A DNA stretch of 64,000 nt, from NCBI RefSeq assembly GCF_015732285.1, contig NZ_WIQU01000007.1:3332-67331 (forward strand), in the 5' to 3' direction. The notes under the pieces were generated by a model, which saw nothing but the letters and a program-made list of their open reading frames with translations, ran no database searches and was not told where the DNA came from. The position numbers and the translations under genes are program-made. Positions 40,713-57,000 of the stretch are shown piece after piece. Positions within the stretch are counted from its first letter, which is position 1; each line of letters opens with the position of its first letter. This stretch comes from Pectinatus frisingensis. Lineage in GTDB: Bacteria; Bacillota; Negativicutes; Selenomonadales; Selenomonadaceae.

Positions 40713-42638
40713 ATGAAGCGAACATTAAAGAAAACGGCAGTGACAGTGATGGCAGTGAGTGGTGTATTGCTGGAGGGAATGACAGTGGTACAAGCGGAAG
40801 ATGTGCAAAAGGTAAATCTTGATAATATTGTGGTAACAGCGACACGAACGGAAAAGGATGCGCTGGATGTTCCGGCCAATACACAAGTTATTACGGCGGA
40901 AGATATTAAAAAGGGTGGGTATACCAGTGTATTTGAAGCGGTAAAAGTATTAGCACAGGCAAATTCATTCGCTTTTCAAGAGGATGGCGGTGATTATGGT
41001 TCGATGATGTCAAGAATCAAGTTACGCGGTATTGACGATGGAACATTGGTCTTAGTGAATGGAAACCCCAGTAACTATATGAACCACGCTACATTGAATA
41101 ATATTCCGATAGATCAAGTGGAACGTATTGAAATAGTCAAGGGGGCCAATTCGGCTTTATATGGCCCGCAGGCTATCGGCGGGGTAATAAACATCATAAC
41201 GAAGAAGCCGGTGAAAACTGGCAAAGTTACCGGTAATATTTCCAGTGCACTTGGCAGCAGGGAAAAAAGTGCCGCAGTAAATGTCCAGACTGATGTGTTT
41301 AATTTAGGTGTAAGAAAAACTTTTTACAAAGATTATGATGGCATACAGCATCCCGGCATTACCGGTTCTGGACCGGCATTGGATATAAGGGATAAAAATA
41401 CTGAACAGTTGTATTTGTCGGTGAATATGGCAAAAGATTTGGTCTTTAACTATGGACGGACAAGCAATGAAGTGGCCTTTGAATCAGGGAAATTTAATAA
41501 TTATATGCCTATTATGAGTAAATATGGATATTATGATACGACATTTAATGACTATTCTTTGATATATGATTCAAAGAAAACAGGAGTAAAGGCTGTAGCC
41601 GGATATAATACTATTAATATGACGGGAACTAAAGGATCAAATAATACATCATGGGGCTATAATGCCAATTTTGATATACAAAAGAAATTTGATTTACGTG
41701 ATCACAAAGATACTTTTATATTAGGAACCAACATGAATCGGGAATATATGAAGGTGAACTATCCGCCTTATGCTAATGATGTGGACAACGGCAGGAACAG
41801 TTATTCTCTATATGAGTCATATGATTATAAAGCGACAGATAAACTAAGTTTTATAGCTGGGATGCGAGAGTATTATATGACTAAATCATCATTTCAGGAT
41901 AGTGATTTCCAGCTTTTACCCCAGTTTCAAGGATTATATAAGGTAAATGATAAATCATCATATTATTTTAATATCGGCAAATCTTTTGAAATGCCGGATA
42001 TTACTTCAAGTTTTTGGTATGGTGATTCGATTGCAATTAATCCTGATTTAAAACCTCAATCAGGTTGGTCATACGAATTGGGACATAAGTTTGAAAATGG
42101 CAAGAGCAGTATAACTACTGATGTATTTTATATGACGGTTAAGGATAAATTTTATTGGGCACAGACACAAAGCGGGCAGAGTATCATGAAAAACCATGAC
42201 AAGTGGCAAAATACTGGTTTGGAAGTTAATTATAAACAAAAAATAGATGATAATTTATCAACTAATATTGGCTTAACTTTACAAAATCCAAAGGCATATT
42301 CCAACAGTAGCGCAAAATGGGTACAGGATTCAGCTAAATACATAATTAATGTCGGGGCTGAGTATAACAGAAATAAATTTATGGCAGACGCTCGTATATT
42401 TGCTAATTTGGATCGTGAACCGGCATTTTACAATTATGAACGAACTTCATCGAGCACACCGGATCATAATTTGTCCAATAGTTGTGATTTAACAGTGACT
42501 TTAGGCTATAAACCGACAGATTCAGATAGTTTTAAGATCATTGGCCGCAATTTGTTTAATAGAAAAGATGTTGTTAACACCTATGAATATTATGCACTTC
42601 CCGCAAATGTGACTTTTGTTTATGAAAAAAGTTTTTAG
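40713..42638 (+). CDS. TonB-dependent outer-membrane receptor (first)
   Basis: The 641-residue protein has a signal peptide (to about AQAE, residue 29), a TonB-box-like and plug region (NIVVTATRTEKDALDVPANTQVI, then IKLRGIDDGTLVLVNG, ERIEIVKGANSALYGPQAIGGVINIITK in pieces) and a beta-barrel ending in a terminal Phe (FVYEKSF). These proteins import chelated metals or corrinoids using TonB energy. It heads the nitrogenase-like island, and its promoter lacks a cobalamin riboswitch, unlike the receptor at 53402. Its ligand is unknown. Confidence 0.92.
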   Translation: MKRTLKKTAVTVMAVSGVLLEGMTVVQAEDVQKVNLDNIVVTATRTEKDALDVPANTQVITAEDIKKGGYTSVFEAVKVLAQANSFAFQEDGGDYGSMMSRIKLRGIDDGTLVLVNGNPSNYMNHATLNNIPIDQVERIEIVKGANSALYGPQAIGGVINIITKKPVKTGKVTGNISSALGSREKSAAVNVQTDVFNLGVRKTFYKDYDGIQHPGITGSGPALDIRDKNTEQLYLSVNMAKDLVFNYGRTSNEVAFESGKFNNYMPIMSKYGYYDTTFNDYSLIYDSKKTGVKAVAGYNTINMTGTKGSNNTSWGYNANFDIQKKFDLRDHKDTFILGTNMNREYMKVNYPPYANDVDNGRNSYSLYESYDYKATDKLSFIAGMREYYMTKSSFQDSDFQLLPQFQGLYKVNDKSSYYFNIGKSFEMPDITSSFWYGDSIAINPDLKPQSGWSYELGHKFENGKSSITTDVFYMTVKDKFYWAQTQSGQSIMKNHDKWQNTGLEVNYKQKIDDNLSTNIGLTLQNPKAYSNSSAKWVQDSAKYIINVGAEYNRNKFMADARIFANLDREPAFYNYERTSSSTPDHNLSNSCDLTVTLGYKPTDSDSFKIIGRNLFNRKDVVNTYEYYALPANVTFVYEKSF

Positions 42639-42680
42639 GCCGGTCAAAAATTAATGATATCGGCTGCGTTTATTTAAATG

Positions 42681-42711
42681 TTGACTATATGGCAACAATA
42701 GGGTGTATAGT
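42681..42711 (+). promoter_or_regulatory. Promoter with related island motif, site B
   Basis: TTGACTATATGG is identical to the first 12 nt of site A. TATAGT follows after a 19-nt spacer, and ACTATA/TATAGT form an outer inverted repeat. It drives the 98-residue gene. Confidence 0.5.
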
Positions 42712-42744
42712 ATAACAAAGATAAAAATGTATGAGGTGATGAAT

Positions 42745-43041
42745 ATGACCTGTAGTGCACATCCCAAGTTTGAGATACCGGACGGCCCGCATGGCAAGCT
42801 TCGTTATGAAAGTGCTATGAGGCATGCACAAGCAGCTAAAAAAGCGGGAAAGTCAACACAAGAAATTCATGCTGTTTTTAAAAAGATAATGGCATTTGAT
42901 CCAATGGATATTGACGCTATTCCCACTGATGCTGCTCATGCTAAGTATCGCAGTGCAGCTATCCATGCTAAAAAGGCATTGGAAGCGGGAAAAAGTATGG
43001 ATGAGGTTCATGAAATATTTCGCAGAGTTAAAAAGGAATAG
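42745..43041 (+). CDS. Uncharacterised 98-residue duplicated helical protein
   Basis: I do not recognise this family. The protein has two copies of one unit: residues 16-48 (HGKLRYESAMRHAQAAKKAG, then KSTQEIHAVFKKI) and 65-95 (HAKYRSAAIHAKKALEAGKS then MDEVHEIFRRV). Both should form two helices around an AGKS turn. Seven histidines, several repeated in register (H27/H74 and H42/H89), suggest metal or ligand binding. It has no signal peptide or membrane segment. ATG at 42745 follows GAGGTG; the in-frame GTG at 42703 lies inside the promoter. It is preceded by motif B, so it probably belongs with the nitrogenase-like genes. Confidence 0.75.
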   Translation: MTCSAHPKFEIPDGPHGKLRYESAMRHAQAAKKAGKSTQEIHAVFKKIMAFDPMDIDAIPTDAAHAKYRSAAIHAKKALEAGKSMDEVHEIFRRVKKE

Positions 43042-43080
43042 GAACAACAACCTGCTCACACAAAAAATGATGCATAAATA

Positions 43081-43229
43081 ATAAAGGAGCTGCCGCACAA
43101 ACGGCATTGACATCATAAAGATGCAGCTAACTATCGTTATGTGGTGATCTGCTTTTAAAAGGCGGATACAAAAAACGAAGCATCGCAGTATTTATGAATG
43201 AAAATGTTTATATACGGCGGCTCCTTTAT
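43081..43229 (+). repeat. Dispersed inverted-repeat element, copy 7 (+)
   Basis: ATAAAGGAGCTGCCGCACAA at the left pairs with TATACGGCGGCTCCTTTAT at the right with wobble pairs. The inner CATTGACATCATAAAGATG and TTTATGAATGAAAATG and a central hairpin CTGCTTTTAAAAGGCGG match the family. It lies between the 98-residue gene and the nifH-like promoter, so it may insulate the two units. Confidence 0.85.
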
Positions 43230-43232
43230 TGT

Positions 43233-43261
43233 TTGACCATATATTTAGTATATAGTTTAAA
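43233..43261 (+). promoter_or_regulatory. Promoter with shared island motif, site C (nitrogenase-like operon)
   Basis: TTGACC, spacer ATATATTTAGTATATAG (17 nt) and TTTAAA. It shares the TA-TATATAGTTTA core and register with site A. It is about 40 nt upstream of the TTG start of the nifH-like gene. Confidence 0.6.
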
Positions 43262-43300
43262 ATTATGAAAACATATATCAATTGTTCGGAGGGTACTTTT

Positions 43301-44113
43301 TTGAAAAAAATTGCAATTTATGGTAAGGGCGGTATCGGTAAATCTACTACAACAGCTAATTTATCGGCAGCATTCAGTGAAATGGGATTGAAAGTCTGTC
43401 AGGTAGGCTGTGATCCGAAGAATGATTCCACACGTTTGTTGCTGGGACATATTTGCCGTAAAACAGTATTAGATGTTGTACGAGACAATGATGCAATAAC
43501 AAGTGAAGATATTGTCCATACAGGGTATAACCAAATAAGCTGTATAGAGGCAGGTGGTCCGGAGCCTGGTGTGGGCTGTGCAGGCAGGGGCATAATTGTA
43601 GCATTGGAAAAAGTCAGAGAACTAAACGTGTTGTCCGATATGGATGCAGTTTTATATGATGTTTTGGGGGATGTTGTCTGTGGTGGTTTTGCTGTACCAA
43701 TACGGGAAGGGTATGCTACAGATATTTATATTGTTTCTTCAGGAGAATTGATGAGTTTATATGCAGCCAACAATATAGCCAAAGGAATAAAGCGTTTTGC
43801 GCTGCGTGGTGTGGTACAATTAGGTGGAATTATCGGCAACAGCAGAAATACTCTCAATGAAAAAAAATTGCTGCAGGAGTTTGCCGCCCGATTGAATACG
43901 TATCTTATAACCTTTATACCACGTGATAGTATTGTTAATGAAGCTGAAAATAAACGTCAGACGGTTATTCAATATGCAGCTGACAGTGATCAGGCTAAAG
44001 TTTACCGCAAATTGGCAAACATGGTTTTGCATAATGCTAAAATGACAGTACCTACACCGATGGATTTTGAGGAATTGGAGGCATTAGCAGAAAAATATGG
44101 GAGTAAAAACTAA
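43301..44113 (+). CDS. NifH-like nitrogenase reductase homologue (Fe protein)
   Basis: This 270-residue Fe-protein homologue should be an ATP-driven electron donor to the NifD/K-like pair. It has P-loop GKGGIGKST (8-16), switch CDPKNDST, cluster cysteine 93 in GGPEPGVGCAGRG and cysteine 127 in DVLGDVVCGGFAVPIREG, so the bridging 4Fe-4S site is intact. Start is TTG at 43301 behind GGAGGG; an ATG at 43265 falls at the transcription start. It overlaps the next gene. Canonical NifH is excluded only by its context: there is no nifB, nifE or nifN. BchL- or CfbC-type roles are possible. Confidence 0.93.
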   Translation: MKKIAIYGKGGIGKSTTTANLSAAFSEMGLKVCQVGCDPKNDSTRLLLGHICRKTVLDVVRDNDAITSEDIVHTGYNQISCIEAGGPEPGVGCAGRGIIVALEKVRELNVLSDMDAVLYDVLGDVVCGGFAVPIREGYATDIYIVSSGELMSLYAANNIAKGIKRFALRGVVQLGGIIGNSRNTLNEKKLLQEFAARLNTYLITFIPRDSIVNEAENKRQTVIQYAADSDQAKVYRKLANMVLHNAKMTVPTPMDFEELEALAEKYGSKN

Positions 44114-45395
44114 ACGTTTTATTATGAAAGGAAAAAATTGCAGCTGTAGTATGCCCGGTGTATGGCGGGCTCTTGTCTGCTGTAAAGGGGCGGTGGTCAT
44201 ATTTCACAGTCCGCGCGCCTGTGCACAGCTTGTCAGAAGTATGGAAGTAAATGCTCAATATCGTGTGTTTTCATACGGTCGGAAATTTGACCGGCACTAT
44301 GATTTTGTACCGCTTATATCTACCCAGATGGAGGAACGGGATTCCATTTTCGGTGGGACGGAGCGACTGCTTGAATGTATACAGTTTGTGGTTGATAAAT
44401 ATCAGCCGGAATGTATTGCAATTGGCAATTCCTGTATTGCCGGTGTAATTGGCGATGATGTAGAAACCATTGGTGACGCGGCCGCCCGACAATTTAAAAT
44501 ACCGATTATAACAGTCAGTTGTTATGGATTTTTGGATGGGGAATATTACCAGGGTTATTTTGAAATGGCACAAAAGTTATTGAGAACTTTTGCTCGCCCC
44601 TGCCGTCGAAAAACAAAAACGGTTGTTTTATTGGGAGATAATGGCGGCCCGTGGGGCCATTATGCTCAGGAAGTAGCATATTTACTCAATTCGCTTGGTA
44701 TAAAAATTTTGGGTCAGTTTCCCGGTTATACGGCAATAGCAAAAATAAAAGATTTAGTAAGTGCTAAGGCTGTTGTTGTATTAGGCAGTGCAGGACAGGC
44801 AGATGAAGGATTGTTAAAATTGGCCGAATTGTTTGGACAGTTTGGTGTTGGTCAATTGCCAAAGGGTTTATATCCGATAGGCTGGACAAATACACAGCGA
44901 TGGATTTTAGCCTTGGGGGAATTGTTCAATTGCCGGGAAGCGGCGCAGCAACTGGTGGCAATGGAAGGGCATCGTTTATTAAGTGCAGGCAGAAATTTCC
45001 TTCCGGTTACCTCCGGTAAGCGGGTCATACTGTGCATAGGCCGTCCCCTGGACTATTTCAACCCGGCCTTGATCATTGAGATAATCAAAGTGTTAGATAT
45101 GAATTTAATCAAAGTAATATTGTTGGATGATTATTCAAACAAGGAATATAAATTGATATGGGAAGCAATAAAACATTCTACAAACATATTGATTTGTAAA
45201 AGTGAGTCATTGGATGTTCGGCTGGACGGTGATTTGATATTGACCACACATGAATTGAAAGAGTGTCCTGTGAGACAAATTTTTTTGCCAATGCTGACAA
45301 AAGCCGGTATTGGTGGAATGATTGATTTCATGCGGGAAATATATCGTGCTTTTTGCCATCGCGGCAGTCGTGGGGGGATTACTTATGTCTGGTAA
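44097..45395 (+). CDS. NifD-like nitrogenase component 1 homologue
   Basis: This 432-residue subunit is shorter than NifD (about 490). The three P-cluster-type cysteines are recognisable: C17 in NCSCSMPG, C42 in FHSPRAC (NifD HGPVGC) and C113 in GNSCIAGVIGDD. FGGTERLLECI parallels NifD FGGDKKL. I find no counterpart of the FeMo-cofactor Cys275 or His442, so it is probably not a dinitrogen reductase. Start is uncertain: ATG 44097 overlaps the nifH-like gene by 17 bp, ATG 44124 follows its stop; neither has a good ribosome site. It pairs with the next gene. Confidence 0.88.
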   Translation: MGVKTKRFIMKGKNCSCSMPGVWRALVCCKGAVVIFHSPRACAQLVRSMEVNAQYRVFSYGRKFDRHYDFVPLISTQMEERDSIFGGTERLLECIQFVVDKYQPECIAIGNSCIAGVIGDDVETIGDAAARQFKIPIITVSCYGFLDGEYYQGYFEMAQKLLRTFARPCRRKTKTVVLLGDNGGPWGHYAQEVAYLLNSLGIKILGQFPGYTAIAKIKDLVSAKAVVVLGSAGQADEGLLKLAELFGQFGVGQLPKGLYPIGWTNTQRWILALGELFNCREAAQQLVAMEGHRLLSAGRNFLPVTSGKRVILCIGRPLDYFNPALIIEIIKVLDMNLIKVILLDDYSNKEYKLIWEAIKHSTNILICKSESLDVRLDGDLILTTHELKECPVRQIFLPMLTKAGIGGMIDFMREIYRAFCHRGSRGGITYVW

Positions 45396-46671
45396 ATGGG
45401 ATGATATTTGTAATAGTATTGACACTTGTGCTTTGGCTGGAGCAGCAGCTTTTTTTGCCGGCATTCCCAAGGCCCAGATACTGGCAAATGGACAACTGTG
45501 GTGTTATTTTTATGCCTTGCGTTATTTGGAGCATGCAGAGTATAATATGGCAGAACGATTTCATTGCACACAGACAGATAATAATGCTGTGATTTACGGT
45601 ACGGAAGAATTTTTACTGAAAGCATTAGAACGAATGCAGCAGTCTGAGTGTCAGCCATCGATATTATTAGTAGAAAACAGTTGCTCTATAAGTCTCATAG
45701 GTGATGATATTGCCGGTATTGCCGGAAAGGCAGCTTTGGAATGTCCGGTAGTGGCGATGGATTGCGGTGGCTTGCTGGGTGGGTTTGCTGAAGGATATGC
45801 TAAAGCTGGTGTGAAATTATTGCAGGTGTTACCGCTGGCAGTCAGAAAACCGGTACATAAAAAAATAAATTTGTTGGGCTTGACAGATTTTTATTATAAC
45901 GGAGCTGCCGACAGCAGAGAAATTGTGCGTATTTTACACGATGCCGGTTATCTGATAGGTGCTATTCCAGGTGGCGGCAGTACACTGGAATGTATTACCG
46001 GGCTCACTGATGCTGAGCTGAATGTAGTGATCAATGAAGAATTGGGACTTCCGCTTGCAAGATTTCTTAAGCAACAGTATGACATGCCATATGTAATTGC
46101 CGGTGTGCCTTACGGAGTTATTGGCAGTAAAAAATGGCTGAGCAGGATAATCCAAATTGTTTCTACGGATGCAAAAGCTGTATTTATTGAATGTGATGCG
46201 GCTGAAAAAAAGCTTACAGCATATGGTAATGATGTAAGTTGTAATTGGGGTGAACCATGGTTTGACGAAACGATAATATGTGCACCGGGCACAATGGCTT
46301 TATGTATAGCTGAGGCAATTCGCAGTGAATGGATAAATACTCAGCATCTGCAGGTAGTTTGCCGGGATAAAGTGATGTATGAAGGAATGTATTCTATAGT
46401 GGCTGATAAAGTTTATCCAAAGGAAGAAATAGAGGCGGCATTAGATGCTTTGCTGTGTATGGACAAAAGTATATTGCTTGTGGGCAGCAGTAATGAGGCA
46501 GCAATTTTTATGCGTCATAATAAGGCAATCAGCTGCTGCAATGTAGCATATCCGGTGAATGATGAAATATTATTGACACAGGTGCCTTTTGCAGGAATTA
46601 GAGGAAGCTTTTATATGCAGCAGCGGTTATGGAATGCTTTTATAAAGAATAGTATTACCACTTCATTTTAA
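45385..46671 (+). CDS. NifK-like nitrogenase component 1 homologue
   Basis: The 428-residue subunit has cysteines C15 (DTCALAGAAAFFAG), C40 (ANGQLWC) and C100 (ENSCSISLIGDD), spaced 25 and 60, close to the 25 and 58 of NifK C70, C95 and C153. A P-cluster-like 4Fe-4S or 8Fe site between the two subunits is therefore likely. The ATG at 45385 follows GGGGGG; the upstream in-frame ATG lies in the nifD-like gene. It overlaps that gene by 11 bp. The pair resembles uncharacterised nitrogenase-like reductases rather than nitrogenase itself. The substrate is unknown. Confidence 0.88.
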   Translation: MSGKWDDICNSIDTCALAGAAAFFAGIPKAQILANGQLWCYFYALRYLEHAEYNMAERFHCTQTDNNAVIYGTEEFLLKALERMQQSECQPSILLVENSCSISLIGDDIAGIAGKAALECPVVAMDCGGLLGGFAEGYAKAGVKLLQVLPLAVRKPVHKKINLLGLTDFYYNGAADSREIVRILHDAGYLIGAIPGGGSTLECITGLTDAELNVVINEELGLPLARFLKQQYDMPYVIAGVPYGVIGSKKWLSRIIQIVSTDAKAVFIECDAAEKKLTAYGNDVSCNWGEPWFDETIICAPGTMALCIAEAIRSEWINTQHLQVVCRDKVMYEGMYSIVADKVYPKEEIEAALDALLCMDKSILLVGSSNEAAIFMRHNKAISCCNVAYPVNDEILLTQVPFAGIRGSFYMQQRLWNAFIKNSITTSF

Positions 46672-46683
46672 GGGGAGAAAAGT

Positions 46684-47721
46684 ATGACAGCAGCAAAAAA
46701 AAATGGGAAATTTGTATTACTGGGATTGTTAGGATTTTTATTGATTGTTTCATGTATGTCATTAACCTGTGGTCAAATAAATATTCCCATAAAAAATACT
46801 TTGGCTGTCATTACTCATCAGATGGGCTTATCAGTTTTTGGGGATAATTCTTTCACCCAGGAGCAGGAGGCTGTAATATGGTTCATCCGTATGCCAAGGA
46901 TGTTGGTCGGGGTTTTGGTCGGAGCGGCACTGGGAATATCCGGTGCTGTAATGCAGGGACTGTTCAGTAATCCGTTGGCTGACCCTGGAATAATCGGTGT
47001 TTCCGCCGGTGCCTCAATGGGAGCGGTGATTGCTATTGCACTGGGACTTGCGGCACAAAATGTGTTTATGATGCCCTTGTTTGCTTTGTGTGGCAGTTTG
47101 CTTGCTGTTATCTTGATCGTGTTTTTGTCAATGAATAACGGCAAGATACCAGTAATGACGCTATTGCTATCAGGAGTGGCTGTCGGAATGCTGCTTGGAG
47201 CGATTACTTCAGGTATTTTAACAATTATGGACGAGCAAAAACTACAAAATTATTTATTTTGGATAGTTGGTGGTTTGGATTATCGCCGCTGGGAGCACGT
47301 CTACATGGCAATCGGGCCGATAACAATGGGAATAGTTATTATGATGTTAATGTCCCGACATTTAAATGTACTGGTGCTTGGGGATATTGAAGCAAAGACA
47401 GTGGGGATGGCGGTTATGCCGTTCCGGATGGGATTGTTATTTGTGGCAGCAATGGTAACGGCAACGTCAGTTTGTGTCAGTGGCAATATTGGCTTTGTTG
47501 GACTCATAATACCACATATGATGCGGTTGCTGCTGGGACCTGATCATCGGATATTATTACCGGCAAGTACCTTGGCAGGAGCTGCTTTTTTAGTTATTTG
47601 CGATTCACTGGGGCGTATTATAGCACCGCCGACAGAAATACGGGTGGGAATTATGACGGCTCTGGTGGGAACCCCATATTTCTTGTATTTGTTAAAAAAA
47701 ATGCAAAAACGTTCTTATTGA
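46684..47721 (+). CDS. FecCD/BtuC-type ABC transporter permease
   Basis: The 345-residue permease has about ten hydrophobic segments and the family motifs RMPRMLVGVLVGAALGISGAVMQGLFSNPLADPG (in the first half) and VSGNIGFVGLIIPHMMRLLLGPDHR. FecCD permeases import siderophores, haem or vitamin B12. It is the last gene of the nitrogenase-like operon, 12 nt after the nifK-like gene. The matching binding protein and ATPase are on the other strand at 49213 and 52356, so the importer is split between units. Confidence 0.92.
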   Translation: MTAAKKNGKFVLLGLLGFLLIVSCMSLTCGQINIPIKNTLAVITHQMGLSVFGDNSFTQEQEAVIWFIRMPRMLVGVLVGAALGISGAVMQGLFSNPLADPGIIGVSAGASMGAVIAIALGLAAQNVFMMPLFALCGSLLAVILIVFLSMNNGKIPVMTLLLSGVAVGMLLGAITSGILTIMDEQKLQNYLFWIVGGLDYRRWEHVYMAIGPITMGIVIMMLMSRHLNVLVLGDIEAKTVGMAVMPFRMGLLFVAAMVTATSVCVSGNIGFVGLIIPHMMRLLLGPDHRILLPASTLAGAAFLVICDSLGRIIAPPTEIRVGIMTALVGTPYFLYLLKKMQKRSY

Positions 47722-47794
47722 TAAAGGATAAAAGTGAAAAAATTTGTTTCATACCTATATTAAGTTGTTAAATTTATCATTAAACATATTTTTA

Positions 47795-47823
47795 TTGCAT
47801 TTTTTTATTAGTGATGTTATACT
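47795..47823 (+). promoter_or_regulatory. Promoter of the type-I binding protein gene
   Basis: TTGCAT and TATACT are separated by 17 nt. The predicted start (about 47829) lies upstream of a hairpin and T-run, so the transcript has a leader of about 115 nt. Confidence 0.6.
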
Positions 47824-47836
47824 TACTTTACTGAAA

Positions 47837-47919
47837 ATGAATAAATGTACTCAGTGCGACGAAGCCTGCTAACAAAGTGCCGATAAATATTGATACTTTG
47901 TTAACAGGCTTTTATTTTT
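47837..47919 (+). promoter_or_regulatory. Leader with Cys-rich mini-ORF and attenuator-like terminator
   Basis: ATG at 47837 opens an 11-codon frame, MNKCTQCDEAC, ending TAA at 47872; three of eleven codons are Cys. Its last codons form the left arm of a stem (47862-47878; AAGCCTGCTAACAAAGT) pairing with 47895-47911, followed by TTTTATTTTT. No ribosome site is evident before the ATG, which weakens the case. Confidence 0.4.
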
Positions 47920-47944
47920 CAGAAAAAATTAAAGGAGTGAAATT

Positions 47945-49111
47945 ATGTTAAAAAGTAGGTTTTTAAAAACAGCTGCATTGTCTGGAGCATTAGTTTTTAC
48001 TTTGCTCGGTGCGGGCTGCGGTGCGGGCAGCTCTGATACCATAAAAATCGGCGGTGATTTGGAATTGACCGGAAATAATGCTTCTTATGGTACTTCAACG
48101 GCAAATGGTGCACAGCTTGCTTTTGACGAGGTTAATTCTGCCGGTGGAATCAATGGTAAAAAGATTGAATTTATTAAAGCGGATAATAAATCTGAACCGG
48201 CTGAAGCTGCCAATGCAATAACCAAATTGACTACTTCGGATAAAGTTTCTGTCGTTTTGGGTGCTTGTACTTCATCAAATACAATGGCTATGACGCAGAT
48301 AGCAGATGATCAAAAAGTACCGCTTGTAAGCTCATTTTCAACTAATCCCAAGGTAACTGTCAATGATGACGGCAGTGTAAATCCTTATGTATATCGTGTT
48401 TGTTTTATTGATCCTTTCCAAGGCACAGTAATGGGAAATTTTGCAACTAACACCTTAAAGGTAAAAAAAGTTGCAGTTTATATTGACAACAGCTCCGATT
48501 ATTCTAAAGGGCTGGCGCATTTCTTCGAAGAAAGTTTCACTAAAAATGGCGGACAAATTGTTGCTGAGGAAGCTTATTTGCAAAAAGACAGTGATTTTAA
48601 GGCCACTTTGACCAAACTGGCGGCTGCTAATCCTGATATGATTTATGTGCCAGGTTATTATGAAGAAGTCGGTAAAATAATTAAACAAGCACGCGATATG
48701 GGAATAACTGTTCCGATTACCGGCGGTGATGGTTGGGACAGCAGTAAATTAGCGGACATTGCCGGACCGGATGCACTTAACAATACCTATTTCACGAATC
48801 ATTATTCTGTGCAAAATAAAACACCTGAAGCAGATAAATTCATAAGTGCATATAAGGACAAATACGGGCAGGATCCAGATGCGGCGGCCGTATTAGGATA
48901 TGATGCAGCTACGATGATAATTGATGCGATAAAACGTGCCGGCAGTGCTGAGCCGGAAAAAATCAATGCGGCTTTAGTGGCTACCAAGGATTTGCAATTG
49001 GTATCGGGGAAAATTACCATAGATAAAGATCATAATCCTGTTAAACAGGCAGTAATAATTGAATTTAAAGATGGACAGCAGTTGTTTAAGCAGGCTATTT
49101 CTCCAGAATAA
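47945..49111 (+). CDS. Type-I periplasmic binding lipoprotein, branched-chain amino-acid-like (LivJ family)
   Basis: The 388-residue protein has a lipoprotein signal with lipobox LLGAGC near residue 25 and the LivJ fold: IKIGGDLELTGNNASYGTSTANGAQLAFDEVNSAGGINGKKIEF (as consecutive pieces) and VVLGACTSSNTMAM. It binds amino acids or related small solutes outside the membrane. No permease or ATPase for a LIV transporter is adjacent, so it is an orphan receptor or uses a distant transporter. Its leader has an attenuator-like layout. Confidence 0.85.
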   Translation: MLKSRFLKTAALSGALVFTLLGAGCGAGSSDTIKIGGDLELTGNNASYGTSTANGAQLAFDEVNSAGGINGKKIEFIKADNKSEPAEAANAITKLTTSDKVSVVLGACTSSNTMAMTQIADDQKVPLVSSFSTNPKVTVNDDGSVNPYVYRVCFIDPFQGTVMGNFATNTLKVKKVAVYIDNSSDYSKGLAHFFEESFTKNGGQIVAEEAYLQKDSDFKATLTKLAAANPDMIYVPGYYEEVGKIIKQARDMGITVPITGGDGWDSSKLADIAGPDALNNTYFTNHYSVQNKTPEADKFISAYKDKYGQDPDAAAVLGYDAATMIIDAIKRAGSAEPEKINAALVATKDLQLVSGKITIDKDHNPVKQAVIIEFKDGQQLFKQAISPE

Positions 49112-49138
49112 ATAAAAATAAATTTTACTGATTAAATT

Positions 49139-49194
49139 ATAAAACACCCCGTTTCATTCGGTAGATAAAAACCGTTGGAAGCGGGGTGTTTTAT
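49139..49194. terminator. Bidirectional terminator between convergent units
   Basis: ATAAAACACCCCG and CGGGGTGTTTTAT form a 13-bp stem that serves both the plus-strand binding protein gene and the minus-strand BtuF-like gene. Confidence 0.8.
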
Positions 49195-49212
49195 AGATTG
49201 ATGGCAGATAAA

Positions 49213-50214
49213 TCATTGATTCTTTTCACCAGAGACCGACAGATGCATATTATCAGAAAAATCAAATGCATTGCCATATGTACAACGGGCGATTTCCTGT
49301 ACGCCAAAAACTATATCCTGAGATACGTTGTACAGGTATCCTTCACGTGGAGTAATTAAAGCATTATTTTTTATCGCAGTGATGGTCTGCAATGAAGGAT
49401 CATTTAAATAATTGCGATTATATGAATCAACATCAAATGTGTTATGGTCATTGTAAGCAGGCATTAATAAGATATCAGGATTTATTTGTACAAGCGCCTC
49501 TTTAGTCAATGCCTGTCCATTGTGAATACCGATTGTGTCAAGCCCATTGATAACACCAGCGTATTTACAGGCATCGTCGAAGGAGGAGCCAATACCGCCG
49601 TAGGTGGTCATCAGAGAAATCAGAACGATTTTTTTGTAATTATCGGGAGAAATTGCATCTACCTTGATTTTTATCTCCGCAAGTTTATCATCCATTAAGC
49701 TGATAAGAGCTTGTCCTTTGTCATGTTCTCCCAGAGCATCGGCAATAAGCTGTACAGTCTGTTTTACCTGGGAAATGTCCTTGGCACCGGGGACAACCAA
49801 AACTTTTATCCCCATGTCGCGCAGGCTGTCGGCTATCTCTATGTTGTTCCAATCAGGAATTATCACTAAATCGGGTTTCATGGCAAATATTTCTTCAGCA
49901 GAAGGCTGTTTGATTTTGGTGGAGATTTTTTTTGCCAGAGGTACTATATTGGAGCTTGTCGGATCATCAAGAAGATAATTTACAGCAATTAATTTGTCTG
50001 TTTTTACCAGGCCTAATACAATTTCATCCGTGCTCATGGAAAGGGTAACGATACGTTGCGGTTTTTGGGCAAAGTGTACGGTTTTACCCTGTTCATCAGT
50101 AACGGAATAGGCATTATTGGCATCGTTTTGCTGCGGTGCATTATTGCAGCCAGTAAATAATAAACCGCACAATAGTATGCTAAAAAAACTATAAAAAAGG
50201 TTTTTTATTGTCAA
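49213..50214 (-). CDS. BtuF/FepB-type class III ABC substrate-binding lipoprotein
   Basis: The 333-residue protein has a lipoprotein signal ending LLFTGC and the class III pattern VTDEQGKTVHFAQKPQRIVTLSMSTDEIVLGL, then KPDLVIIPDW. Such proteins deliver corrinoids, haem or siderophores to FecCD permeases. Start is TTG at 50214 with GGAGGAGG 6 nt upstream; an in-frame ATG at 50256 lies inside cbiZ. It overlaps cbiZ by 26 bp. The adjacent cbiZ suggests a corrinoid ligand, but another metallophore is possible. Confidence 0.9.
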   Translation of the reverse strand: MTIKNLFYSFFSILLCGLLFTGCNNAPQQNDANNAYSVTDEQGKTVHFAQKPQRIVTLSMSTDEIVLGLVKTDKLIAVNYLLDDPTSSNIVPLAKKISTKIKQPSAEEIFAMKPDLVIIPDWNNIEIADSLRDMGIKVLVVPGAKDISQVKQTVQLIADALGEHDKGQALISLMDDKLAEIKIKVDAISPDNYKKIVLISLMTTYGGIGSSFDDACKYAGVINGLDTIGIHNGQALTKEALVQINPDILLMPAYNDHNTFDVDSYNRNYLNDPSLQTITAIKNNALITPREGYLYNVSQDIVFGVQEIARCTYGNAFDFSDNMHLSVSGEKNQ

Positions 50215-51313
50215 ATGTTTCCTCCTCCATGGCAGTATTTTTATGAATAATGGCATTAAAGATTTCGCACCAAACCTGCATCATATTCTGCACATCAGGT
50301 TTTTTTACATCAATGGCGGTAACAGCATAATTTCGTTTTAATATATTTAGAATTTCATTGGCTGCAGCAGTGGTCTCCTTTCCGTTCAAAAGCTGCCAGA
50401 GATATTGGTCCAGAATATGTACATACAAAGATGTATATACAAGCATGTTATCCTGCCGTGCTAAATCTTCGGCACACAGCAGGAACTGGGGTTTCAATAA
50501 ATTATTGAAGTGGCTGCTATATTTTTCCCAAAGCTTGGCAGGGGTTATGCCAAATCGTTTTAGGCGGCGAAAAGTGTCATGCTGCCGGGCGGCATTAAGA
50601 CCGGATTGTTTATCCAGAGCTTTTTTAACGGCTTTGATGATAACCTTGCCAATAAGTTCACCTAGTTTGGAATGTTTGCCAGCATCTTCTAAATATAAAC
50701 TACTATCAGAATTTGCTATGATGATAGTTTGATCCGTGCCTGAACCTGTGGCTAATCCCATGGAATAGTTGCTGCCAAACAGCAATTCCTGAATAGCAGC
50801 TGTTTTTGCCTCAGTACAGGTAACCAAAGCCCGTGTTAAAGTTCCCGGCGGCATATTACTGTCGAGAAAAAGCAAAATATTGATGGTGCCAAATCGATCG
50901 GGTTTTTCAACAGGACGATAATAATCAGCATGGTCACCTACTCTGCCGCCATTGGTTTCTATGCCGCCGGTGACGATGGCAGTTACTGTTAATTCCTTGT
51001 AGGTCATGCCTTCAATGACAGCATTTTCCATACTGGCGGCAGTCCCCATGCCGCTGACTTTTTCCGGTTCCAATGATAAACGTTTTGATATCAATTTCAT
51101 ATGTTCAATATAGCTGTCGGCAAGCATCTCACATGGCATGCCGTCACCCTGCTTAGCATCATGGTTGTAAACTGCAATAAAATCTTCATGGTAGCCGCCA
51201 TTGTAAACAGAAGTACTCAGTACTTTACGGTTTCCATTAAAAAATGCGACAATACTTTTATCGTATAAATAAACAGTATCGCCAGTTGAGAGTGTACAAA
51301 GTTTTTCCGACAT
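50189..51313 (-). CDS. cbiZ: CbiZ adenosylcobinamide amidohydrolase with C-terminal extension
   Basis: CbiZ cleaves the amide linking the aminopropanol arm in imported corrinoids, so that they can be rebuilt with a preferred lower ligand. The N-terminal ~235 residues hold the domain (MGTAASMENAVIEG, LTVTAIVTGGIETNGGRVGD, GTLTRALVTCTEAKTAAIQEL, GTDQTIIIAN). An additional ~135-residue helical tail (ARQHDTFRRLKRFGITPAKL onward) is unusual and unassigned. It overlaps the binding-protein gene and follows the TIM-barrel gene by 11 nt, which indicates one operon. Confidence 0.9.
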   Translation of the reverse strand: MSEKLCTLSTGDTVYLYDKSIVAFFNGNRKVLSTSVYNGGYHEDFIAVYNHDAKQGDGMPCEMLADSYIEHMKLISKRLSLEPEKVSGMGTAASMENAVIEGMTYKELTVTAIVTGGIETNGGRVGDHADYYRPVEKPDRFGTINILLFLDSNMPPGTLTRALVTCTEAKTAAIQELLFGSNYSMGLATGSGTDQTIIIANSDSSLYLEDAGKHSKLGELIGKVIIKAVKKALDKQSGLNAARQHDTFRRLKRFGITPAKLWEKYSSHFNNLLKPQFLLCAEDLARQDNMLVYTSLYVHILDQYLWQLLNGKETTAAANEILNILKRNYAVTAIDVKKPDVQNMMQVWCEIFNAIIHKNTAMEEETFDNKKPFL

Positions 51314-51324
51314 GATTTCTCCTA

Positions 51325-52290
51325 TTATTCATGTGATAGGCCACAGGCCGATAACTGCTGCGGCAGCAGTTTAGACAGCTGCGGAAAGTCATCATAATAA
51401 AGTTCATGAACGAGGTAATCAGGCTGTAATAAATCTAATACTTTACGAATGGCTTTATCAGTAAAGGGACGGTGTTGGTCAATATTTACTATGTGTTCCA
51501 GCAGTATTTGCAGATTGAGATGGGGAGGAACCTGATGGTCAAGTGAATGCTGGTATTCAGCAGAAAGAGAACAGCTTAAATGCACACCCTTGATCAATGC
51601 GGCGAGACTGCCAAGTTCTGCAATGATCCGGCAGATATATTCTACGGCCTGCTGCTGGTTTTGCAGATCACAGTTAGTATTGAGTAAGTGACCTGTGTCC
51701 AGCATAATACCGACATTTGGTCGTTTTATCAAATCAAAAAACATCTTGACCAGATCCTTGTTTAGTAAACGCAGTCCCGGCCACCAGAGATTTTCAAATA
51801 AAACAGTGATATCAGTAGGAATGCAGTCAGCAACCATATTAAAAATTTCAGCGGCCGCTGTCAACACCTTGGCGTCATCATATTCAAAATTAAATGTAAA
51901 TATTGATTCCGTGCTGCAGTCGGCAACATGCCATACCAGATATTCGGGATGCTGTTTGAGGGCTGAGGCAATATTGGCTTTGATTACCTTGAGCCATTCG
52001 TTTTTATCATGGGCACCGCCGAAGTAATCGGTTTTATTGTATACTGCAGCAAATTGTTTTTTCACACTGGTTGTGTTATCTAACCAAAATCCCAGCCAAT
52101 ATGGCCAATAAGCTAAATGAACACCGACTGAGACCGCAGAATAATCGTGTGATCGAATATTGGTATCATATATCAGTTGTTCTATACCGTCTAAATGGAA
52201 ATTTTTTAAGTAATCAGATAGAGTAATTGCATTTTGTTTTAAATTGATTTCATAATAATCTGTTGCACAATAATTTAGTAAATTTTTCAT
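51325..52290 (-). CDS. Xylose isomerase-like TIM-barrel protein
   Basis: The 321-residue protein resembles the sugar phosphate isomerase/epimerase and AP-endonuclease-2 superfamily: VLFENLWWPG and NVGIMLDTGHLLNTN supply metal-ligand-like Glu, Asp and His residues, with HGVHLSCS-type IKGVHLSCSLS later. Its reaction is unknown. ATG at 52290 is used; the upstream ATG at 52317 overlaps the -10 region of motif D. It is first in the operon with cbiZ and the BtuF-like gene, which suggests a part in corrinoid or metallophore handling; this is inference. Confidence 0.7.
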   Translation of the reverse strand: MKNLLNYCATDYYEINLKQNAITLSDYLKNFHLDGIEQLIYDTNIRSHDYSAVSVGVHLAYWPYWLGFWLDNTTSVKKQFAAVYNKTDYFGGAHDKNEWLKVIKANIASALKQHPEYLVWHVADCSTESIFTFNFEYDDAKVLTAAAEIFNMVADCIPTDITVLFENLWWPGLRLLNKDLVKMFFDLIKRPNVGIMLDTGHLLNTNCDLQNQQQAVEYICRIIAELGSLAALIKGVHLSCSLSAEYQHSLDHQVPPHLNLQILLEHIVNIDQHRPFTDKAIRKVLDLLQPDYLVHELYYDDFPQLSKLLPQQLSACGLSHE

Positions 52291-52307
52291 AATAGTCACT
52301 GCATTAA

Positions 52308-52336
52308 TATAAAGCATATAGTATGTATACTGTCAA
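52308..52336 (-). promoter_or_regulatory. Promoter with shared island motif, site D
   Basis: On the minus strand TTGACA (52336-52331), spacer GTATACATACTATATGC (17 nt), -10 TTTATA (52313-52308). The TACTATAT core sits in the same register as in site A. The expected transcript starts about 10 nt before the TIM-barrel ATG, so the leader is very short. Confidence 0.6.
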
Positions 52337-52355
52337 GACTACTGCTGCTTTAAAG

Positions 52356-53213
52356 TCATTTTTTAGGTACGATTTCCATATTATAAGGATGGCATATTTT
52401 TGACAATAATTGCTGTCCCTTTTTTGGGGCATCGGTATCTATTTTGGTAGAGATTTCCCAGTTGCCGCTGATGGGATTTCTTATTATCTGTACAGCGGTA
52501 TTGTAAGCATATCCCAGCAATGGTTCGGTAAAGACCTGTTTAGCATTTCCATCGGCAACAATTTGTCCTTTACCCAGTAGTAAAAGACGACTGCAATATT
52601 TTGCTGCTAAATTTAATTCATGGACAACCATTAAGATGGTTTTTCCCATCTGTGCCAATTCTTTAGTGAGACGAAAAATTTCTTCTTGATAAACCATATC
52701 CAGACCGGTTGTCGGTTCATCTAAAAACAACAGTGGAGTTTGCTGCGCCAGCACTTTTGCCAGTAGAATGCGTTGCCTTTGCCCACCGGATATTTCACTG
52801 ATGGGAACATCGGCCAGATCAGTTGTCCCTGTATAGGACATACATTCCATTGCAAGATTTTCATCATATGCATTTTCCTTTTGCCACCATTTAAGATAAG
52901 GATAGCGGCCTAAGAGGACAATATCCTTACCTGTGTAGCCAAAATCTATATTAATATTTTGCTGCAGATAGGCAACCATTCGGGCCATTTGTTTTTCTGT
53001 AAAACTGCTTATATCGGAACCAAAATATCTGATTGTGCCTTTTTGTGATGGCAGTAATCCACGCAGAGTTTTCAATAAGGTGCTTTTACCAGATCCATTA
53101 CAGCCGATTATGCCAATAATTTCACCTGGAGAAACGGTTATATTAATATTTTTTATTATTTGTCGATTACCATACCCGATGCTTAAATTTTTAATATCAA
53201 TAATTGTATTCAT
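52356..53213 (-). CDS. FecE/BtuD-type ABC transporter ATP-binding protein
   Basis: The 285-residue ATPase has Walker A GCNGSGKST (about 36-44), signature ISEISGGQRQR, Walker B LLFLDEP and switch His MVVHELNLAAKYC, in the pattern of siderophore, haem and B12 importers. It ends 38 nt before site D. It has its own likely promoter, TTGCAC-17-TATATT at 53266-53294. It presumably energises the FecCD permease at 46684 with the binding protein at 49213. Confidence 0.92.
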   Translation of the reverse strand: MNTIIDIKNLSIGYGNRQIIKNINITVSPGEIIGIIGCNGSGKSTLLKTLRGLLPSQKGTIRYFGSDISSFTEKQMARMVAYLQQNINIDFGYTGKDIVLLGRYPYLKWWQKENAYDENLAMECMSYTGTTDLADVPISEISGGQRQRILLAKVLAQQTPLLFLDEPTTGLDMVYQEEIFRLTKELAQMGKTILMVVHELNLAAKYCSRLLLLGKGQIVADGNAKQVFTEPLLGYAYNTAVQIIRNPISGNWEISTKIDTDAPKKGQQLLSKICHPYNMEIVPKK

Positions 53214-53401: not shown

Positions 53402-55351
53402 TTAGAAATTCATTTCGTAACCAATCATGAAATTTATCGGTGTGGAATAGTAAGGAGTGGAAGCTGAATGTGTTACGATATCATCTCGGTCAAGAATATT
53501 ATTTATGGTGAGAGTGGCAGTCTGACTGGAGTCAAACGCATATTTAAAGTTGAAATTAGTTAATAAATATGGCTTGCAGTCAGTAGGATAAGCATTATCA
53601 GGTGAATTTACCCGATCAAATAAATAGACGGCATTTATTCCGGCAGTAATTTTATCTTTATGATAATTTGTTCCGCCGTTAAGCTGCCATCTGCCATATT
53701 CGCGTGCCCAGGTTCCACGTAAAGCCCGTCCCATGGCATTGGTACCTTTGGGATTGTTTTCCGGATTGCTAAAGACAATTCCCCAGTTGTAATTCCAGCC
53801 ACCATTTCCCTTGATGGTATCGGTTATTTCGATACCGGTATTGCGGGCATCTTCATTGGAATAAGTAACCTTGGAGGTACCGATGGTGGCAGTAATGTTA
53901 TCTTTTATATTTTGGTGGAATAATACAGTCTGCCAATTGTGTGCTCCTTGTGTCTTTTTCCAACCAATTTCATAATGCAGTCCTTTTTGTGGTTTAAGAT
54001 CAGCAGTGCCGGCCAAAGTATTGCCAGATTGATTTAAAGTTGGCATTTTAAAAGATTGACCTGCGCTGATGTATATACTTTCATTAGAATTTAATTTATG
54101 GATGAATTGACTTTGACCACTGAAATTTGTAAAGTTTTGTTTGTCAGGGCCACCGGCAGTCCATGATTCCCGGCCACTTAAAAGGAAAGTATTACTATTA
54201 CTCAATTTGTATTCCCACTGACCGTAGGCAGAATAATTGTTTCGGGAGATATCATAGTAATTTTGAGAAAGAGATGAGGTGCTCGGTGCAGAAAAAAAAT
54301 CATGTTCTGTCTTGCTGTATTTTTCTTTTTGGTAACTCAGACCAAATAACAGGCTGTTATTGATAAATTGCCATTTTTTATTTATATCAAGCCCCATATT
54401 ATAATTGGATTCTTTGCTGTCGTCAGCTTCGTAACCAACTTTACCCTTGGCGGATTTATCATAAAATGATTTTGAATTATGACGGCGTCCGTTGTAGTAA
54501 AAATTACCGGACAGGCCGTTATTTTTATAATTTATTTGGAAAAAATCACGGGTGGTATTATAATTATCACTCTGATTTTTTGTTCCTTTACCTACTAATG
54601 GAGTGAAATATCCCACACGAGAATTGTTGTGGTTGTAAAATAGTGACCAGTTATCATCAATGGTATAATTTAAGGATATATTATTTTTTTCTGAGCCATT
54701 AAAGTCTTTGTCGTTAGAAGCAATATTGTTTATATGTCCCCATTTTTGATAATTGTACCCAATTCCTAATTTATCTTGTTGTATATTAATGCTGTGTTCT
54801 TGCTGGCCCATATTGCCCCAGCTGGTTTTAACAGAGTTGTTTCGCTGTTTTTTGGTAATAATATTTATAACACCACCCACTGCATCACTGCCATATAGAA
54901 CAGAACCACCGCCGCGTACTATTTCTACACGCTCCACATCATTCAGAGGAATGTCTGATAAATTATATGAGCCTCTTATATTGAGTGGAGCACCATTGAT
55001 CAGTATCAATGCTTCCGCACCGCGAATCAGTACCTTTGAGCGCATATTACCCATGCTGTTGCCGCCGGGTCCATAATCTAAATAAACGATACCTGCAGTA
55101 TATTTGAGTGCTTCCTGCAAATTGTTTGCACCGGTATTAGCCAGCTGCTGAGCTGTCAAAGTTTCTGTGTCAGCAGGAATGTCGATATTTTTTTTGTGAT
55201 AACGCAAGGCTGTCACACTCACGTTTTCCAACGCAACTGCCGGAGCAGTGCTGTCATCAGCGCTGCTGTCGGCAGCCGTATCAGCATAGGCATTCGGATA
55301 ACTACTGTTTATAATGCAAACAGTAGTTAAAAATATAAAACTTTTTTTCAA
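53402..55351 (-). CDS. TonB-dependent receptor under cobalamin riboswitch control (BtuB-like)
   Basis: This 649-residue outer-membrane receptor has a signal peptide, a TonB-box-like NVSVTALRYHKKNIDIPADT region, plug motifs (VLIRGAEALILINGAPLN, ERVEIVRGGGSVLYGSDAVGGVINI in parts) and a beta-barrel ending GYEMNF with terminal Phe. The leader carries a cobalamin riboswitch and terminator, so cobalamin represses it and corrinoid uptake (BtuB function) is the best call. It is divergent from tonB-exbBD. Confidence 0.92.
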   Translation of the reverse strand: MKKSFIFLTTVCIINSSYPNAYADTAADSSADDSTAPAVALENVSVTALRYHKKNIDIPADTETLTAQQLANTGANNLQEALKYTAGIVYLDYGPGGNSMGNMRSKVLIRGAEALILINGAPLNIRGSYNLSDIPLNDVERVEIVRGGGSVLYGSDAVGGVINIITKKQRNNSVKTSWGNMGQQEHSINIQQDKLGIGYNYQKWGHINNIASNDKDFNGSEKNNISLNYTIDDNWSLFYNHNNSRVGYFTPLVGKGTKNQSDNYNTTRDFFQINYKNNGLSGNFYYNGRRHNSKSFYDKSAKGKVGYEADDSKESNYNMGLDINKKWQFINNSLLFGLSYQKEKYSKTEHDFFSAPSTSSLSQNYYDISRNNYSAYGQWEYKLSNSNTFLLSGRESWTAGGPDKQNFTNFSGQSQFIHKLNSNESIYISAGQSFKMPTLNQSGNTLAGTADLKPQKGLHYEIGWKKTQGAHNWQTVLFHQNIKDNITATIGTSKVTYSNEDARNTGIEITDTIKGNGGWNYNWGIVFSNPENNPKGTNAMGRALRGTWAREYGRWQLNGGTNYHKDKITAGINAVYLFDRVNSPDNAYPTDCKPYLLTNFNFKYAFDSSQTATLTINNILDRDDIVTHSASTPYYSTPINFMIGYEMNF

Positions 55352-55494: not shown

Positions 55495-55683
55495 CCCTCC
55501 CTATCACTCGCAGGTTTTAATGGTGACTGTTGAATAAGCAGTTCTTCTGACTTCAGTTCATCGCTAGACCAGCCTTCTCGGATTTCTCCAATGACATTTT
55601 TGGCTTTGCTCCCTGTTACAGCGGCGTGACCGTACCGGCTTTATACCGGTTTTTCTATTAAGTCCCATAGGACACTTATTCCT
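55495..55683 (-). ncRNA. Cobalamin riboswitch (receptor side)
   Basis: On the minus strand the aptamer core is ACGGTCACGCCGCTGTAAC, with GGGAGC following and the B12-box-like AAGTCAGAAGAACTGC downstream; it ends in CCTGCGAGTGATAGGG. It lies in the leader of the TonB-dependent receptor at 53402. A -10 TATAAT is at 55715-55720 on the minus strand. Confidence 0.9.
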
Positions 55684-55797
55684 GAAATATGAAATTTTTC
55701 TGAAACACTTTCATATTATAACATAATAAAGTAAAAATGAATAGCTGTTATCAATAATATGATTTACAATATCAATATTTAGTATAAGCTTTTGCTC

Positions 55798-55826: not shown

Positions 55827-55879
55827 GTAATATAGATTTGTTATATAAACTATAATTATTCAATAATAAAATACAGTGA

Positions 55880-56066
55880 ACAGGTGCGGGTACGCTTAAT
55901 AGAGAAGTGCGGTAATACACCGCTGCGGTCACGCCGCTGTAAAGGGAAATCATGTTGTAATTAAAGTCACTGGGAAACTGGGAAGGCGCAACGTGGTAAT
56001 GATCCAGAGCCAGAAGAACTGCCTGTTTGAAGATCACCATCTAACCTGCGAGTGATAGGGAGGGGA
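55880..56066 (+). ncRNA. Cobalamin riboswitch (tonB side)
   Basis: The aptamer core GCGGTCACGCCGCTGTAAA, with GTCACTGGGAAACTGGGAAG and B12-box-like AGCCAGAAGAACTGCC, ends in CCTGCGAGTGATAGGGAGG. That end is identical over about 22 nt to the divergent riboswitch at 55495. It controls tonB-exbB-exbD. Confidence 0.92.
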
Positions 56067-56111: not shown

Positions 56112-56142
56112 AAGCATATTCCTTTGGGAGTGTGCTTTTTTC
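56112..56142 (+). terminator. Terminator in the tonB leader (riboswitch expression platform)
   Basis: AAGCATATTCC / GGGAGTGTGCTT (two G-T pairs) is followed by TTTTTT, 17 nt before the tonB ATG. It fits transcriptional-off control when cobalamin binds. Confidence 0.7.
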
Positions 56143-56158
56143 AGTTGGGGGAATCTGT

Positions 56159-56965: not shown

Positions 56966-57000
56966 TGCATCTGGAAAGGCAACTATGAGGGGGATAATTT

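Follow-up and report, generated by a model that had tools for sequence, protein, structure and literature searches.

The nitrogenase superfamily has few known substrates, namely N2, protochlorophyllide, chlorophyllide, Ni-sirohydrochlorin, methylthio-alkanes and isethionate (PMC11423573, PMC12552129). DPOR and CfbCD are reported to hold only [4Fe-4S] clusters together with tetrapyrrole sites, while nitrogenases and Mar hold a P-cluster (PMC12552129). Here, we describe three adjacent genes, nflH, nflD and nflK, in a 64,000-nucleotide stretch of Pectinatus frisingensis DNA (GCF_015732285.1, contig NZ_WIQU01000007.1, positions 3,332-67,331; hereafter the window). Judged from sequence, their products, NflHDK, are a distinct nitrogenase relative, not a nitrogenase. 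With moderate confidence, we propose that NflHDK is a nitrogenase-superfamily reductase belonging to the B12 regulon and acting on an imported corrinoid. No B12-linked nitrogenase-like enzyme was described among the matches listed in the open-access literature, subscription journals being mostly not covered.

All three proteins carry superfamily domains above the gathering scores. On the + strand, nflH (43301-44113; open frame 43265-44113) encodes a NifH-like, ATP-dependent reductase component of 270 amino acids (PF00142, 357.7 bits versus 25), nflD (44097-45395) encodes the alpha subunit of the catalytic component (PF00148, 170.7 bits versus 28.6), and nflK (45385-46671; open frame 45322-46671) its beta subunit (PF00148, 132.1 bits versus 28.6). 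NflH scored below the NCBIfam cut-offs for nifH (384.5 versus 394.35 bits), CfbC (378.1 versus 402) and BchL (214.8 versus 345.15), and the D/K-type cut-offs were missed for nifD (67.2 versus 653.55), BchB (73.0 versus 490.35) and CfbD (37.0 versus 268.4). Trees were built with Nif, Anf, sulfur-type sets, Bch and two iron-transporter-linked sets as references, CfbCD sequences not being included. NflH formed its own clade with a support of 97/95, and NflD and NflK formed theirs with 100/100 each, apart from all of these references; since the Bch rows sit on long branches, a tree-based position of Nfl close to BchNB or BchYZ would not be reliable.

The host genome contains 14 PF00148 matches, including the two of the window. 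Its other sets, found in loci L009, L010 and L011, are a Mo-nif cluster on C61, an Anf-like set on C10 and, on C11, three further pairs associated with sulfur and ABC genes; the names “Anf-like” and “Mar/sulfur-type” were assigned here from context and sequence. An earlier interpretation, made from the letters of the window and here called the sequence-only reading, had suggested phylogeny as a check, and NflHDK indeed falls outside genuine NifHDK, though nif genes are present elsewhere in the genome. Its statement that nifB, nifE and nifN are missing stands in part: apart from nflD and nflK the window has no PF00148 gene, hence no nifE or nifN; nifB was outside the search, and the genome at large has the Mo-nif cluster.

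The metal sites were compared in 33 NflD/NflK rows, which comprise the window and 32 relatives. Cys17, Cys42 and Cys113 of NflD are present in all 33 rows and align with the P-cluster cysteines of NifD; Cys15 and Cys40 of NflK are likewise invariant, and Cys100 is kept in 32 of the 33, all three aligning with the P-cluster cysteines of NifK. Among nine K-type references, the three cysteines occur together only in two NifK and AnfK, and not in sulfur-type K, BchB, BchZ or NifN. NflK has a cysteine at the column of BchB Asp36 and Cys15 where BchB has proline, while Cys100 is common to both; BchZ has one cysteine where NflK has three. In contrast to these P-cluster-type ligands, both cofactor-ligand columns, that of the cysteine and that of the histidine, lack the ligand in every one of the 33 NflD rows. 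The window's NflD shows alanine and a gap at these two columns, and the host's own NifD has both ligands; an earlier alignment of 20 rows gave glycine (18) or serine (2) at the first column and gaps at the second. In the references, the cofactor cysteine is present in NifD, NifE, AnfD and sulfur-type D, while the histidine is missing in NifE and the sulfur-type proteins. The P-loop and both cluster cysteines of NflH are conserved in the alignment of relatives. P-cluster cysteines without cofactor ligands thus make a combination unlike both the DPOR/CfbCD type and the nitrogenase/Mar type.

AlphaFold models were good, with a mean predicted local distance difference test score of 86.3 for NflD and 91.3 for NflK. 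Among the best 50 matches listed for the NflD model against the PDB, Mar and NifD were best, with template modelling (TM) scores of about 0.61-0.67 (query length) and 16-21% identity; for NflK, AnfK and DPOR (BchN-BchB) entries were best, with TM scores of 0.75-0.81 in the first ten. The superfamily, the fold and the six P-cluster-type cysteines would also suit a true nitrogenase or a sulfur reductase of the Mar/Isr type with a NifB-derived cofactor, and NflH comes near the nifH cut-off. NflHDK also resembles MarHDK/IsrHDK in its HDK operon, and the fold of NflD finds its best match in the Mar structure 9d9u (20% identity). Nevertheless, such an enzyme is extremely unlikely here, with both cofactor ligands absent from every NflD row and the clades separate. 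The comparison within the host points the same way, where the three sulfur-type D subunits keep the cofactor cysteine that NflD lacks, whereas the sulfur-type K subunits lack the first P-cluster cysteine that NflK keeps. In one related locus, L065, the radical SAM gene of the C11 set has a relative (cluster c50), which lies beside another nitrogenase-like gene.

The gene content around nflHDK points to corrinoid uptake and remodelling. The last gene of the nfl operon (46684-47721, + strand) encodes a FecCD/BtuC-like permease (PF01032, 323.5 bits), whose best NCBIfam match is BtuC (294.3 bits, under the cut-off of 461), and the four genes are spaced by short overlaps or gaps in an operon-like manner. 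Upstream lie a TonB-dependent receptor (40713-42638, + strand; PF00593 and PF07715) and a small protein of family c13 (42745-43041, + strand). A facing group of genes on the - strand encodes a BtuB-like TonB-dependent receptor (53402-55351), with the B12 receptor TIGR01779 as best NCBIfam match (140.7 bits, cut-off 599.7), a BtuD-like ABC ATPase (52356-53213; PF00005, 108.9 bits), a TIM barrel (51325-52317; PF01261, 30.0 bits, sub-threshold to the cut-off of 31.1), the adenosylcobinamide amidohydrolase CbiZ (50189-51313; PF01955, 187.3 bits, cut-off 27) and a BtuF-like substrate-binding protein (49213-50256; PF01497, 71.7 bits). The TIM barrel is probably CbiR, a cobamide remodelling enzyme; several of its His/Asp/Glu residues are kept in 18-19 of 20 aligned copies, the window's counted. 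All the components of the nitrogenase-like, uptake and CbiZ set that the sequence-only reading had named, from the NifH-like protein to the TIM barrel, were confirmed at the coordinates given here, while the c13 protein, two cobalamin riboswitches, a MerR-type promoter and a MerR regulator were not in it.

A cobalamin riboswitch (55520-55694, - strand; RF00174, 96.2 bits, gathering score 31.5) leads the corrinoid uptake and remodelling operon, and a second (55865-56040, + strand; RF00174, 81.7 bits) leads three open reading frames (56132-56965, 57001-57630 and 57608-58021; together 56132-58021, + strand), which we take to be TonB, ExbB and ExbD and to supply energy to the receptors. The sequence-only reading had proposed a reductase whose imported substrate is a corrinoid, another tetrapyrrole or a metallophore; this proposal gains support, and the riboswitches appear to narrow the likely substrate class to corrinoids. 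The riboswitch-led operon on the - strand has BtuD and BtuF and no permease, and the genome holds only two full-length FecCD permeases, the one in the nfl operon and one on C55, besides a weak partial match (27.6 bits); most simply, therefore, the nfl permease would complete the transporter of the - strand operon. The C55 permease belongs to another riboswitch-led operon (L213 4761-9573), in the order CbiK (with a signal-peptide-like start), CbiL, BtuF, BtuC and BtuD. A BtuR/CobA gene (18558-19169; PF02572, 179.5 bits) is also present in the window, and a branched-chain-amino-acid-type binding protein (47945-49111), which lies between the two gene groups, is probably unrelated to the nfl system.

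Control by B12 is also seen at nflH itself in related loci. We scanned 22 of 60 neighbourhoods (L045-L104) with Rfam for RF00174, seven of them chosen before any pre-scan and 15 for their pre-scan hits. A cobalamin riboswitch lies directly 5' of nflH in 11 of the 22 (L048, L057, L061, L063, L068, L070, L072, L073, L074, L089 and L090), with -31 to 343 bases between it and the open frame, one case being among the seven and the others among the 15; in three more of the 22 (L059, L098 and L102), likewise among the 15, it lies 5' of a separate nflK copy. The pre-scan was rough: its weak matches in L050 and L054 were not confirmed by Rfam, and it missed or misplaced the Rfam matches of L058 and one in the window. 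When B12 is abundant, riboswitches of the cobalamin class normally repress its uptake and synthesis. A system under such control should therefore help to gain B12, and not merely degrade it.

At the window's own nfl operon, a MerR-type promoter/operator with a dyad in its extended spacer (43233-43263, + strand) precedes nflH. The same kind of promoter was seen 5' of nflH in L045, L046, L047, L049, L050 and L052, and a pattern built on these has eight matches across the window, L045-L104, L106 and L009-L011, the eighth being in L065. Such a promoter precedes nflH in the window and in seven relatives. A MerR-family regulator of the window (30091-30963, - strand; PF13411, 43.2 bits) falls into the same BLAST cluster as MerR proteins adjacent to nflH and matches their profile with 379 bits, being itself among the seeds of that profile. 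The host's nfl promoter looks MerR-controlled. The start of nflH is probably TTG 43301 rather than ATG 43265, since a Shine-Dalgarno-like GGAGG precedes it and the starts of relatives agree. A strong fold was found at 43060-43250 (z -6.9), and a low-threshold Rfam search of the nflH leader returned a single snoRNA match (E 1.1). The 151-base folding element at 43080-43230, between the c13 gene and nflH, is a dispersed repeat with 41 matches in the genome, itself counted. A new riboswitch in this leader was rejected because of these copies and of the position upstream of the promoter.

The association with corrinoid and uptake genes recurs among relatives. NflK orthologues (E below about 1e-35) were found in 82 of 380 genomes of the class Negativicutes, the host included. 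A named scan of the best 80 of 84 matches gave 78 loci, 75 of which are from Negativicutes by record title; the others are from Pelotomaculum propionicicum (L124), Acholeplasmataceae (L141, a doubtful title) and Lachnospiraceae (L185). In the 60 neighbourhoods, mapped by profiles over about 9 kb on either side where contigs permit, nflK was found in 60, nflD in 58 and nflH in 48. The uptake genes there are BtuF (37), FecCD (34), TonB receptor (28) and any ABC ATPase (28, an unspecific count); the chelatase genes are CobN (35), ChlD (27), ChlI (24) and CbiK (11); the remaining ones are CbiZ (23), radical SAM (21), TIM barrel (19), c13 (14), MerR (13), nitrilase (10) and CobA (7). At least one uptake or corrinoid/chelatase gene occurs in 47 of the 60, and the 78 named loci, which are largely from the same genomes and were mapped with the same profiles, show a similar pattern. 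The conservation of the neighbourhood, also suggested as a check by the sequence-only reading, thus holds, with transporter genes (any of TonB receptor, BtuF or FecCD) in 45 of 60 loci and CbiZ in 23 of 60.

At the genome level, nfl co-occurs with CobN. Both are present in 72 of the 380 genomes, nfl only in 10, CobN only in 43 and neither in 255 (Fisher p 5.5e-36, not corrected for kinship), that is, CobN is found in 72 of 82 genomes with nfl versus 43 of 298 without; counted by genus, the numbers are 27, 3, 14 and 58 (p 2.2e-11). Within Pectinatus, both are present in two genomes and absent from three. These data also bear on whether nfl genes lie in corrinoid islands by chance and serve another substrate, such as a siderophore. 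Other nitrogenase-like sets do adjoin iron-type ABC transporters, and corrinoid and uptake neighbours are lacking at 13 of 60 nfl loci. However, riboswitches directly 5' of nflH, the co-occurrence with CobN and a clade different from that of the iron-linked sets make chance placement quite unlikely. An NflK search of plasmids returned five records only, all remote. A further nitrogenase-like HDK group lies beside iron-type ABC transporters on plasmids of Sporomusa termitida and Treponema saccharophilum (L194 6580-9852 and L191 8959-12132), with an alpha/beta hydrolase adjoining it on one of the two; these groups are perhaps ferric-siderophore reductases.

In the host, CobN, a radical SAM protein, ChlI and ChlD are encoded by one intact operon on another contig (C61 10623-18390). 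This CobN pairs with the CobN of the nearest relative, L045, in a tree that holds no CobN from nfl-less genomes, and in L045 the CobN gene comes after the nfl genes. The two proteins pass the CobN model (946.8 bits for the host and 942.3 for L045, cut-off 822.05) and stay below that of BchH (813.7 and 827.6, cut-off 829). The hmu operon of Bacteroidota similarly joins a CobN-type protein to TonB-receptor and ABC uptake (PMC12583661), and the CobN-type protein here might strip iron from imported haem as HmuS does, with NflHDK reducing the porphyrin. The binding protein of the C55 BtuFCD-type operon fits such a haem or iron-porphyrin system, its best match being the haem protein IsdE (145.5 bits, cut-off 298.65). 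We nevertheless consider this system distinctly improbable, given that cobalamin riboswitches, CbiZ, CbiK, CobA and the CbiR-like gene recur near nfl, that the nfl permease matches BtuC best and that ChlI and ChlD frequently go with CobN.

The c13 protein, conserved beside nfl operons, consists of two repeats rich in conserved histidines. For the relative in L047 no family was found; in the window's copy, PF02627 matches over just 21 residues (26.0 bits against a cut-off of 23, though no single stretch passes by itself), and the match to PF02645 falls short of the threshold. Possible roles are a metal or corrinoid carrier, or a substrate of the radical SAM protein. In the last case, a peptide-derived metal carrier could arise by modification of c13, and NflHDK would serve the resulting cofactor. 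The radical SAM protein matches PapB-type peptide maturases best (161.1 and 149.5 bits, cut-off 340), and its gene occurs in 11 of the 14 loci that hold c13; but of the 60 loci, only 14 hold c13 and 21 the radical SAM gene, and this role for NflHDK is highly improbable.

From the observed gene content, control elements, cluster ligands and co-occurrence, we infer the following course of reactions for a corrinoid reductase. A TonB-dependent receptor and the BtuFCD-type transporter, assigned by family, would import a cobalt-corrinoid, whose nucleotide loop could be stripped by CbiZ and the CbiR-like enzyme, likewise judged from their families. NflH would hydrolyse ATP and feed low-potential electrons through a putative P-cluster-type cluster at the NflD/NflK interface, and the pocket of NflDK that matches the FeMo-cofactor site may accommodate the corrinoid, much as tetrapyrroles are bound by DPOR and CfbCD. 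The most likely outcome would be reduction of the cobalt towards Co(I), after which the corrinoid might be adenosylated or handled by the CobN-ChlI-ChlD chelatase. Alternatively, the ring could be reduced, as it is by the tetrapyrrole members of the superfamily. We place the reduction at the cobalt only tentatively, as a plausible outcome, and regard reduction of the corrin ring as doubtful. Cobalt is slightly favoured because nfl persists in genomes without CobN (10 of 82) and because other uptake-linked nitrogenase-like sets adjoin iron-type transporters. In some of these genomes without CobN, nfl lies beside CbiZ, CobA or CbiK (L064, L103 and L102, the last with only nflK found).

An extension of this scheme is an anaerobic cobalt-recycling machine, in which NflHDK would reduce the imported corrinoid far enough for CobN-ChlI-ChlD, together with the radical SAM protein, to remove or exchange its cobalt. 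We consider it unlikely. We know of no described enzyme for removing or exchanging cobalt on the very inert Co-corrin. In another setting, NflHDK might fill a gap in de novo B12 synthesis or offer another route for one of its steps, such as that of the CbiJ reductase. B12 regulation, a reductase and chelatases near nfl would suit such a role, which is however very unlikely: the nfl genes associate with uptake and remodelling genes, and both CbiJ (335 of 380 genomes) and CbiD (332 of 380) are present, the host included. Replacement of CbiJ and absence of the de novo corrin pathway were rejected on these counts.

Several observations weigh against NflHDK as a corrinoid reductase of the B12 regulon. 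The host's own nfl and CobN operons have no riboswitch, although 13 were found genome-wide, and the nfl promoter looks MerR-controlled instead. The riboswitch was directly 5' of nflH in only one of the seven loci scanned by Rfam before the pre-scan. No corrinoid or uptake gene lies in the stretch read at 13 of the 60 loci, and 12 of the 60 yielded no nflH. Ten of the 82 nfl genomes lack CobN, and 43 genomes have CobN without nfl. With corrin already made de novo, there is no evident need for the enzyme. The best scores of the radical SAM protein are those of peptide maturases, and both TonB receptors, the permease and the BtuF-like protein all stay under the B12-specific cut-offs of NCBIfam.

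Several further arrangements of nfl genes were noticed. A second and remoter NflDK type (L182, L183 and L185-L188), whose NflK is 29-35% identical to that of the window, occurs in Succiniclasticum, Phascolarctobacterium and others beside a TonB receptor, BtuF and sometimes ChlI-ChlD. Lone nflK copies (L098 8987-10345 and L102 9404-10717) have a cobalamin riboswitch 5' and an adjoining CobA, with no nflD or nflH in the stretch read, and the copy in L098 has lost the conserved GDD motif. A MeaB GTPase (tested by Pfam in L072) and probable methylmalonyl-CoA mutase subunits lie near nfl in L072, L074, L089 and L100, which suggests a link to B12-dependent propionate metabolism. Named carriers of nfl include Selenomonas, Centipeda, Phascolarctobacterium, Dialister and Veillonella, and the family is also present in Sporomusa and Pelosinus. 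The first five genera are known from the human mouth and gut, and some of these five depend on B12 for making propionate. For this reason, the system may influence how B12 is allocated within the communities of the mouth and gut. If our proposal is true, the B12-linked branch would bring a new substrate class to the nitrogenase superfamily and, in its P-cluster cysteines unaccompanied by cofactor ligands, a new combination that bears on the evolution of nitrogenase clusters.

Compared with the described systems, NflHDK shares with DPOR and the chlorophyllide reductase COR (BchLNB and BchXYZ) a NifH-type ATPase with a DK-type catalytic part that lacks FeMo-cofactor ligands, and by analogy a tetrapyrrole substrate is expected for it; unlike them, it scores far under the family cut-offs and forms a separate clade, the Bch branches being long. 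CfbCD of F430 biosynthesis, likewise nitrogenase-like, comes near the proposed activity in that it reduces a metal-tetrapyrrole, Ni-sirohydrochlorin a,c-diamide (PMC12552129, PMC11423573); CfbD is reported to be a homodimer (PMC11423573), whereas NflD and NflK are encoded by two genes. With cobamide remodelling operons that hold CbiZ and CbiR, the locus shares CbiZ, a CbiR-like TIM barrel, BtuBFCD-like uptake and B12-riboswitch control; a nitrogenase-like enzyme is not mentioned in the sections of the CbiR account used here, which was not searched for the word (PMC7733943). The haem dechelatase HmuS provides a further parallel, as a CobN-type protein used with TonB/ABC import in anaerobes, and a term search of the main text of that paper gave no mention of nitrogenase (PMC12583661). 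Haem dechelation by HmuS would be the analogue of the proposed cobalt recycling, with NflHDK/CobN as its corrinoid counterpart; unlike HmuS, the CobN of nfl loci often stands with ChlI, ChlD, a radical SAM protein and NflHDK in loci bearing B12 riboswitches.

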